Assembly: GCA_001817425.1 (NCBI GenBank)
Contig: MHII01000021.1
Span: 33,301-72,373 of the forward strand
Length of the DNA: 39,073 bases
Reading direction: 5' to 3'
Origin: Candidatus Buchananbacteria bacterium RIFCSPHIGHO2_02_FULL_39_17
Lineage (GTDB): Bacteria; Patescibacteriota; Patescibacteriia; Buchananbacterales; UBA6539
Part shown: positions 31,664 to 39,073 of the stretch, one piece after another
How the letters are laid out: each line of letters begins with the position of its first letter
Position numbering within the stretch: position 1 is the stretch's first letter
Program-made: the position numbers and the translations under genes
Notes under the pieces: generated by a model
What the model was told of the DNA's origin: nothing
The model's input: only the letters and a program-made list of their open reading frames with translations
Database searches by the model: none

Positions 31664-31830
31664 TTGGCGATGATGGCCCGCCCGCTTTGACTTCGTCAAA
31701 GCGAAGTCGGGCGCGGCAGGCGGGGCATATAAACTATTGGTCGTCGGTTTCCCGACGCACTGATTTGTTAAAATAATTAAGAAGTCGGGATCCTCGGTTC
31801 TCGGTGAAACCGGAACCAGGACAATTCTCT
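31664..31830. repeat. Palindrome-rich gap after the tRNA cluster
   Basis: GC-rich non-coding sequence with GCTTTGAC-TTC-GTCAAAGC (31684-31702) nested in GCCCGCC/GGCGGGGC, TCCCGAC (31750-31756) with GTCGGGA (31784-31790) over 27 nt, an alternative CGTCGG-TTTC-CCGACG, and a bulged GGTTC-T-CGGT hairpin near 31796-31818. GGTCGTCGGTTTC looks like part of a tRNA T-arm interrupted by the TCCCGAC unit. No gene seen. Confidence 0.5.
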
Positions 31831-38701: not shown

Positions 38702-38818
38702 GGGGGTATAGTCCCGACGTTCGCCTAAAGGTGAAGTCGAGATCCCGATTCCGCTAAAGGCGGACATCGGGACTCAGTCTGGTAGATCCGTCAGCTGGCG
38801 GACTTTTAAGCAGATGGG
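38702..38818 (+). pseudogene. tRNA-Lys copy split by two palindromic inserts
   Basis: It matches the first ~47 nt of the tRNA-Lys at 39024 in three pieces: GGGGGTATAG (38702-38711), CTCAGTCTGGTAGA (38773-38786) and CTTTTAAGCAGATGG (38803-38817). A clean 61-nt insert lies between tRNA positions 10 and 11, and TCCGTCAGCTGGCGGA (38787-38802) replaces the 8 nt GCAACTGC, which destroys the anticodon stem. The 3' half is missing. It cannot fold as a tRNA. Confidence 0.8.
38712..38772 (+). repeat. Tandem pair of 30-31-nt palindromic units
   Basis: Unit A (38712-38742) and unit B (38743-38772) share one architecture: TCCCGA outer arm, inner TTCGCC or TCCGC arm, TAAA loop, complementary inner arm, and GTCGAGA or TCGGGA outer arm. 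Together they begin TCCCGA and end TCGGGA. Confidence 0.85.
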
Positions 38819-38829
38819 TTTGATCCATT

Positions 38830-39033
38830 ATGATCTACAATGTTTACGTAATAAATAACCCTGAGAATGGTAAAATATATATTGGGCAGACTACTAATAA
38901 AAACAAGGGTGTTTGGCAATTAATTTATTTAGAGAAATACCCTAATCGTAAAACAGCGATACTTCGAGAAAAACAATTAAAAAGTTATCAGGGTAGAAAA
39001 TTTATTAGAAGATTAATAGACATGGGGGTATAG
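38830..39033 (+). CDS. GIY-YIG nuclease-like ORF with internal deletion
   Basis: A 67-aa protein: MIYNVYVINNPENGKIYIGQTTN is the GIY-YIG start (Tyr-x-Tyr and Tyr-Ile-Gly), and WQLIYLEKYPNRKTAILREKQLKSYQGRKFIRRLI is the C-terminal half typical of small UPF0213-type GIY-YIG proteins (with REKQLKSYxGR). The middle helix (usually RLxxHNxGxxxxT, with the catalytic Arg) is missing, so it is probably inactive or a remnant. Its stop codon TAG is the last triplet of GGGGGTATAG, the tRNA-Lys 5' end, so ORF and tRNA overlap by 10 nt. No ribosome-binding site is seen. Confidence 0.6.
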   Translation: MIYNVYVINNPENGKIYIGQTTNKNKGVWQLIYLEKYPNRKTAILREKQLKSYQGRKFIRRLIDMGV

Positions 39034-39073
39034 CTCAGTCTGGTAGAGCAACTGCCTTTTAAGCAGATGGTCG
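39024..39073 (+). tRNA. tRNA-Lys (UUU), 5' part, cut by window end
   Basis: GGGGGTATAGCTCAGTCTGG, then TAGAGCAACTGCCTTTTAAG and CAGATGGTCG: acceptor GGGGGTA, D-arm GCTC...GAGC, anticodon loop CTTTTAA (anticodon TTT). The T-arm lies beyond the window. The D-arm is intact, unlike the copy at 38702. Confidence 0.88.

Follow-up and report, generated by a model that had tools for sequence, protein, structure and literature searches.

The locus at the right-hand end of the window (the whole stretch of 39,073 nucleotides analysed here, from Candidatus Buchananbacteria bacterium RIFCSPHIGHO2_02_FULL_39_17) is, judging from sequence comparison, probably a decayed copy of a small homing-type mobile cassette that attacks tRNA genes and carries a rescue tRNA. 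Tiny nuclease cassettes that split tRNA genes are widespread in ultra-small bacteria. Their architecture recurs, the kind of tRNA follows the nuclease clade, five copies hold a middle tRNA that differs from the interrupted one, and one empty site was found in a congeneric species.

The split tRNA-Lys locus and its nuclease gene

The initial annotation described a duplicated tRNA-Lys with a split left copy and a GIY-YIG open reading frame (ORF) between the copies, and every coordinate was confirmed (Table 1). The three tRNA pieces shared by the copies (10, 14 and 15 nt) each occur exactly twice in the window and keep their order, which excludes chance; the right copy lies 322 nt from the left one. 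The loss from the left copy had been reported as that of the anticodon stem; it is in fact the 3' strand of the D stem and the 5' strand of the anticodon stem that are gone, and the TTT anticodon loop is kept. Two palindromes form a 61-nt insert in the same copy, and similar paired palindromes occur at C29:9881-9929 of the same genome. As had been noticed, the right tRNA supplies the stop codon of the ORF: TAG is its nucleotides 8-10. The "tRNA-type promoter" did not hold up, as the scanned region has 4 such sites against 1.9 ± 1.3 expected, which is not beyond chance.

No integrase lies between the window tRNA copies, where the sole ORF is the GIY-YIG gene, and Rfam gave no intron in the window. 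The earlier view of a small mobile element at a tRNA gene, with an intact tRNA beside a displaced, broken copy and GIY-YIG as the sole protein gene, is supported. The right tRNA-Lys is known only to nucleotide 50 because the window ends with contig C21 and the rest of this gene falls outside it; a displaced 3' half of tRNA-Lys may lie there too. A search for the 3' half of the right copy in the other contigs of the genome matched only the window copy. In this assembly (1.14 Mb, 38 contigs, 96% complete) no tRNA-Lys(TTT) gene was found besides the right copy of the window, and a Lys(CTT) gene lies on contig C7.

Table 1. Features of the window locus, and other GIY-YIG cassettes of the same genome (G000)
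Feature	Position	Strand	Evidence or remark
Displaced tRNA-Lys copy, nt 1-10 (GGGGGTATAG)	38702..38711	+	exact repeat of 39024-39033
Secondary palindrome 1, 31 nt (TCCCGACGTTCGCCTAAAGGTGAAGTCGAGA)	38712..38742	+	sequence; similar paired palindromes elsewhere in genome
Secondary palindrome 2, 30 nt (TCCCGATTCCGCTAAAGGCGGACATCGGGA)	38743..38772	+	sequence
Displaced tRNA-Lys copy, D arm (CTCAGTCTGGTAGA)	38773..38786	+	exact repeat of 39034-39047
Element hairpin, 16-nt palindrome TCCGTCAGCTGGCGGA, one G-T pair	38787..38802	+	replaces 8 nt, GCAACTGC, of the intact copy
Displaced tRNA-Lys copy, anticodon loop to variable loop (CTTTTAAGCAGATGG)	38803..38817	+	exact repeat of 39056-39070
GIY-YIG nuclease ORF, 67 aa	38830..39033	+	PF01541, E 1.9e-8; alignments
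tRNA-Lys (TTT), first 50 nt, intact as far as seen	39024..39073	+	Rfam RF00005, 34.9 bits, cut at 3' end
tRNA-Gln(CTG) cassette, L317	G000:C28:3667-3979		clearest replacement case
tRNA-Ser(GCT) cassette with GIY-YIG	G000:C32:30552-30983		
tRNA-Glu(TTC) cassette with GIY-YIG	G000:C29:321-660		internal stops
tRNA-Glu(CTC) cassette with GIY-YIG	G000:C3:133-443		internal stops

The nuclease belongs to the GIY-YIG superfamily by profile match and catalytic residues: intact relatives match PF01541 at E 3.7e-16 and 8.2e-17, and Y6, Y17, G19, R27, H31 and E56 are invariant in the alignment of relatives. The window ORF is shorter than these, by an in-frame loss of about 21 aa that takes out R27 and H31. 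As it lacks the conserved Arg and His of the second motif, the window nuclease is probably inactive. The internally deleted nuclease, the G-T pair in the hairpin and the two added palindromes mark the window copy as old. The nucleases are about 84-100 aa long and consist of one domain. Modelled with AlphaFold2, an 88-aa protein forms one GIY-YIG fold (mean pLDDT 86); among solved folds UPF0213 and Slx1 come nearest, followed by the I-TevI catalytic domain.

Recurrence of the arrangement and choice of target

A 474-nt region of the window matched a genome from another genus of the family (G003), which holds a broken tRNA-Lys, an intact GIY-YIG gene and a complete tRNA-Lys. The junction pattern GGTAGA + TCCGCCAGCTGGCGGA + CTTTTAAGC was present in 10 of 381 genomes of the class, from 6 families, and the reversed control in 0. 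When six nuclease sequences were used as protein queries against 84,980 species genomes, 80 loci were recovered, nearly all in Patescibacteria. A same-strand tRNA gene lies within 150 nt in 68 of these (mainly Lys and Asn, one His, one Met); the loci were not picked by tRNA, yet all six seeds are tRNA-adjacent, which enriches for adjacency. Five of the 12 remaining loci (L166, L169, L179, L181 and L192) contain a group I intron where the tRNA would be expected, downstream of the ORF and inside the target tRNA, and the tRNA finder missed these tRNAs because the intron hides them. The intron sits near the anticodon of a tRNA-Asn, so that two kinds of element occupy one gene.

In nearly all 80 loci a tRNA fragment is interrupted by a 6-bp hairpin, the sequence of which is conserved. 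A perfect hairpin stands just upstream of the ORF in 68 of them, with TCCGCC in 60; the remaining hairpins show compensatory changes in the stem. This conserved stem with a variable loop is seen at Lys, Asn, His and Met tRNAs alike. The usual place of the hairpin is after GGTAGA in Lys targets and, in Asn targets, in the D loop after GCTC. The palindromes of the window had been read as later invaders. This does not suit the 16-nt unit, which is a constant part of the arrangement, but the 61-nt pair does look secondary. The ORF stop is formed by tRNA nucleotides 8-10 in about 30 loci and by nucleotides 19-21 in 6. For the non-target tRNAs at these loci, an exact match of at least 12 nt lies upstream in 4 of 28 cases, and these resemble matches to neighbouring tRNAs. 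Pairing of the D loop with the hairpin core was considered and rejected, as the match is present in 4 of 18 Lys loci and the variants do not co-vary.

Other repeats were seen in passing. Loci L123 and L128 are tandem arrays of hairpin-bearing tRNA 5' copies with no ORF, in units of 79 and 84 nt, and are possibly non-autonomous copies. A palindromic unit of 39-41 nt, TCCCGAC...GTCGGGA with an A/T-rich loop, occurs at window positions 31750-31790 and on contigs C23, C24, C29, C10 and C2, within about 140 nt of several tRNA genes and mostly downstream of them. A 19-nt palindrome, TCCCGACGTAAAGTCGGGA, is repeated at about 10 places in the genome.

Whether the target is tRNA-Lys or tRNA-Asn goes with the nuclease clade. 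On the protein tree (80 rows and few columns, many forks weak), Asn and Lys targets require 3 changes each, compared with 26 in shuffles, and 0 of 500 shuffles was as low. Among relatives the arrangement is repeated and target-specific, which speaks against the possibility, raised in the initial annotation, that the split copy is an ancient unrelated relic. One Asn-target subclade lies on contigs of Nitrospirota, Myxococcota, Ignavibacteriota, Verrucomicrobiota and WOR-3; these contigs are possible binning errors. Patescibacteria have been inferred to be donors of GIY-YIG genes to other bacteria (PMC12455944).

More distant GIY-YIG genes likewise stand at tRNAs for Pro, Gln, Glu, Ser, Thr, Ala, Arg and Trp. 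Of the 11 PF01541 matches in the window's genome, 4 lie immediately upstream of a tRNA (Gln-CTG, Ser-GCT, Glu-TTC and Glu-CTC; Table 1); we estimate the chance expectation for genes that close to a tRNA at about 0.5%. All four cases include a tRNA 5' fragment with interrupting palindromes, unlike the Lys hairpin in sequence. Across a sample of the phylum, 62 of 145 genomes have a nuclease match at E 1e-14. Among the best 30 matches, one per genome, 20 are at most 160 nt from a same-strand tRNA (Asn, Pro, Gln, Lys, Ser, Thr, Met or Glu), most with broken copies. General PF01541 matches in 10 relatives are seldom near a tRNA (within 400 nt in 5 of 30), so adjacency is a trait of certain lineages and not of all small GIY-YIG genes. 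Two GIY-YIG ORFs of the window's genome have other surroundings: one, away from tRNAs, has 23-nt inverted repeats (TTGACCCCGCACCTTTTGGTCAC and its complement) at its flanks (L323, G000:C36:864-1064), and one lies between direct repeats with palindromes in them (TGTCATGCCGAACTTGTTTCGGCA; L324, G000:C17:24722-24949).

Full copies and an empty site

The full form of the cassette consists of a tRNA 5' half, a hairpin or palindrome, the nuclease gene and an intact tRNA in either order, a second palindrome and the tRNA 3' half. It was seen in L120 (genome G274), L121 (G004), L125, L154, L352 and the Gln locus of the window's own genome. The initial annotation had set duplication of the 5' part against the 3' part duplicated in known tRNA integrations; the contrast is incomplete, since in full copies the cassette has the two halves of the displaced tRNA on either side. 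As both halves are kept there, copies with only the 5' half are probably a subset from which the 3' half has gone.

Five loci have outer halves that match each other at 7/7 acceptor-stem pairs around a middle tRNA with another stem: the own-genome Gln locus, L121 (Lys), L125 (His, with one G-T among its seven pairs), L154 (Lys, where the middle tRNA differs in the anticodon stem too) and L352 (Thr). Given matching outer halves and a different middle stem, the middle tRNA is not simply the resident gene; either it came with the cassette or it has diverged since. At the Gln locus, the resident halves TCGGGGA... and ...TCCCCGA enclose a tRNA-Gln with the stem TGCGGGA/TCCCGCA, beside the GIY-YIG gene. 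A pattern search for the outer Gln halves in relatives matched the own genome alone, with a pattern that was too strict.

An empty site was identified by comparing G126 and G274, two species of one genus. Over 2.3 kb to one side and about 1.2 kb to the other, their flanking sequences share 92-94% identity; a 1.7-kb difference lies beyond the 3' half. G126 has a single tRNA-Lys(TTT) with an older broken copy upstream, and that broken copy is common to both genomes. G274 has in addition hairpin, nuclease gene, second tRNA and hairpin between GGTAGA and CTTTTAAGC, the intervening 8 nt being gone, and its outer 3' half, which corresponds to the tRNA gene of G126, continues into the sequence downstream of that gene. 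The cassette and second tRNA are absent from G126, which thus shows the site unoccupied. The Lys(CTT) gene of both genomes carries an older insertion without an ORF.

Mechanism, alternatives and related systems

We infer the following mechanism. The cassette would comprise the single-domain GIY-YIG nuclease gene, of about 85-100 codons, and an entire tRNA gene of the kind it targets. The nuclease would cut the resident tRNA gene, for Lys between GGTAGA and CTTTTAAGC and for Asn mostly in the D loop. The cut ends would be homologous to the outer halves of an occupied copy, and repair would copy hairpin, cassette and hairpin between them. Since everything between the outer halves would be copied, these halves would be resident and the middle tRNA could be foreign. 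A 6-bp hairpin would mark each junction, and the cassette tRNA would take over from the broken gene. The 3' half may often be lost later by recombination with the middle tRNA, leaving broken 5' copy, nuclease gene and intact tRNA, and the host would then depend on the tRNA adjoining the nuclease gene. The middle tRNA retains the presumed target, so self-cutting must be somehow limited. Two findings count against homing: no 3' half is seen at most of the 5'-only copies, particularly those at Asn, and the nucleases have no DNA-binding domain as in classical homing enzymes, with folds nearer to UPF0213 and Slx1 than to I-TevI. Moreover, some of the differing middle tRNAs could be duplicates that have diverged.

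An unlikely alternative is hairpin-guided transposition, in which a structure-specific nuclease acts on hairpin, cruciform or single-stranded tRNA DNA and hairpin-bounded DNA inserts without classical homing. Both junctions of full copies carry the hairpin, its stem is conserved with some compensatory changes while its loop is free, and the nearest folds, UPF0213 and Slx1, are branched-DNA nucleases. Genomes with the element have 1-16 copies of the palindrome, most element-free genomes have none, and at L167, L168 and L192 the hairpin is nested in the loop of another copy of the same hairpin. However, the match between tRNA kind and nuclease clade points to sequence recognition of the tRNA gene, and the hairpin lies inside the duplicated tRNA stretch, the outer ends of which lack it.

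We consider it improbable that this is an ordinary gene in a favoured place, with the tRNA duplicated by slippage, a GIY-YIG gene using the tRNA promoter, the broken copy a leader or neutral relic, and nothing mobile now. The downstream tRNA does often form the ORF stop, many ORFs are decayed (in the window and in the Glu copies) and the arrays L123 and L128 are relics with no ORF. Against this reading stand the shared hairpin and target position in many lineages, the congeneric empty site, the five differing middle tRNAs and the scattered host distribution. A defence or anti-defence unit, in which spare tRNA copies and a nuclease protect against tRNA-cleaving toxins or phages, is very unlikely. 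It has a precedent in SegB, a GIY-YIG enzyme that cleaves and amplifies tRNA genes against a tRNA-cleaving defence in phage T6 (PMC13096335), but here the broken copies are unable to function as tRNAs, and the host gains no additional working tRNA genes. Nor do phage records hold a detectable relative: tblastn with the nuclease protein gave no match in the phage collection at E 1e-3, viral contigs gave weak partial matches at most and two plasmids gave matches at only 36%, and carriage by a virus or plasmid was rejected at this search sensitivity. An assembly artefact, suggested by the right tRNA copy running off contig C21 and allowed for in the initial annotation, can be set aside, since large contigs from many independent assemblies contain the same arrangement in their interior, which refutes it for the family.

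For the homing-type cassette, the closest known systems are phage SegB and the mobile ORFs of fungal mitochondria. SegB, a free-standing GIY-YIG homing endonuclease of phages T4 and T6, also has its gene beside tRNA genes; it cuts inside them, and tandem copies of the tRNA region arise (PMC13096335). The cassette nuclease gene likewise stands at its own target, with a same-strand tRNA nearby and a target that follows the clade; a separate DNA-binding domain after the catalytic domain is absent from its single-domain proteins. SegB is located in phage tRNA clusters, and no hairpin-split tRNA or replacement for a broken host tRNA is described for it. A SegB-like cassette nuclease would cut the empty allele, and one such allele was identified. 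Mobile ORFs of Allomyces atp6 and Glomus atp6, atp9, cox2 and nad3 place an endonuclease ORF in an essential gene with a possibly foreign replacement part, the native part lying beyond the insert (PMC3630166). The cassette has the same combination of nuclease ORF and replacement, an intact tRNA between resident halves. Mobile ORFs replace the 3' end of mitochondrial protein genes, whereas the cassette holds a whole tRNA, has conserved hairpin junctions and resides in bacteria.

GIY-YIG insertions in the rRNA genes of CPR bacteria share host group, nuclease superfamily and a structural RNA gene as target (PMC11270868). They are sparse and outside spread by homing, and tRNA goes unmentioned in that work (PMC11270868); the tRNA cassettes are frequent, target-specific and equipped with a rescue copy. 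Integrase-type elements also use a tRNA gene as their site and restore an intact tRNA on one side, but the cassette has no integrase, keeps both resident halves in full copies and measures about 0.3-0.5 kb. It lacks the self-splicing ribozyme that surrounds the ORF in a group I intron or IStron. No Y1 (HUH) transposase, as in the REP/RAYT or IS200/IS605 hairpin transposons, lies inside the element, while one might act in trans. Our literature search, with preprints and most subscription papers outside its scope, found no paper on GIY-YIG and tRNA genes in Patescibacteria, and none joining GIY-YIG with repetitive extragenic palindromic sequences.

We regard as plausible, if short of probable, a wider picture of a phylum-wide class of minimal selfish elements. 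They would disrupt essential tRNA genes and make the host a hostage to the sole working copy, which they supply, with the hairpin as junction mark or signal and separate nuclease lineages for most tRNA kinds. With many natural pairs of target and nuclease and one empty site now listed, the idea is directly testable. If it is true, essential tRNA genes of Patescibacteria would be repeatedly broken and replaced by cassettes of less than 0.5 kb, a possible explanation for the abundant tiny GIY-YIG genes and tRNA-like fragments in these genomes. The cassettes would be a bacterial counterpart of mitochondrial mobile ORFs and would offer a route for the horizontal replacement of tRNA genes.
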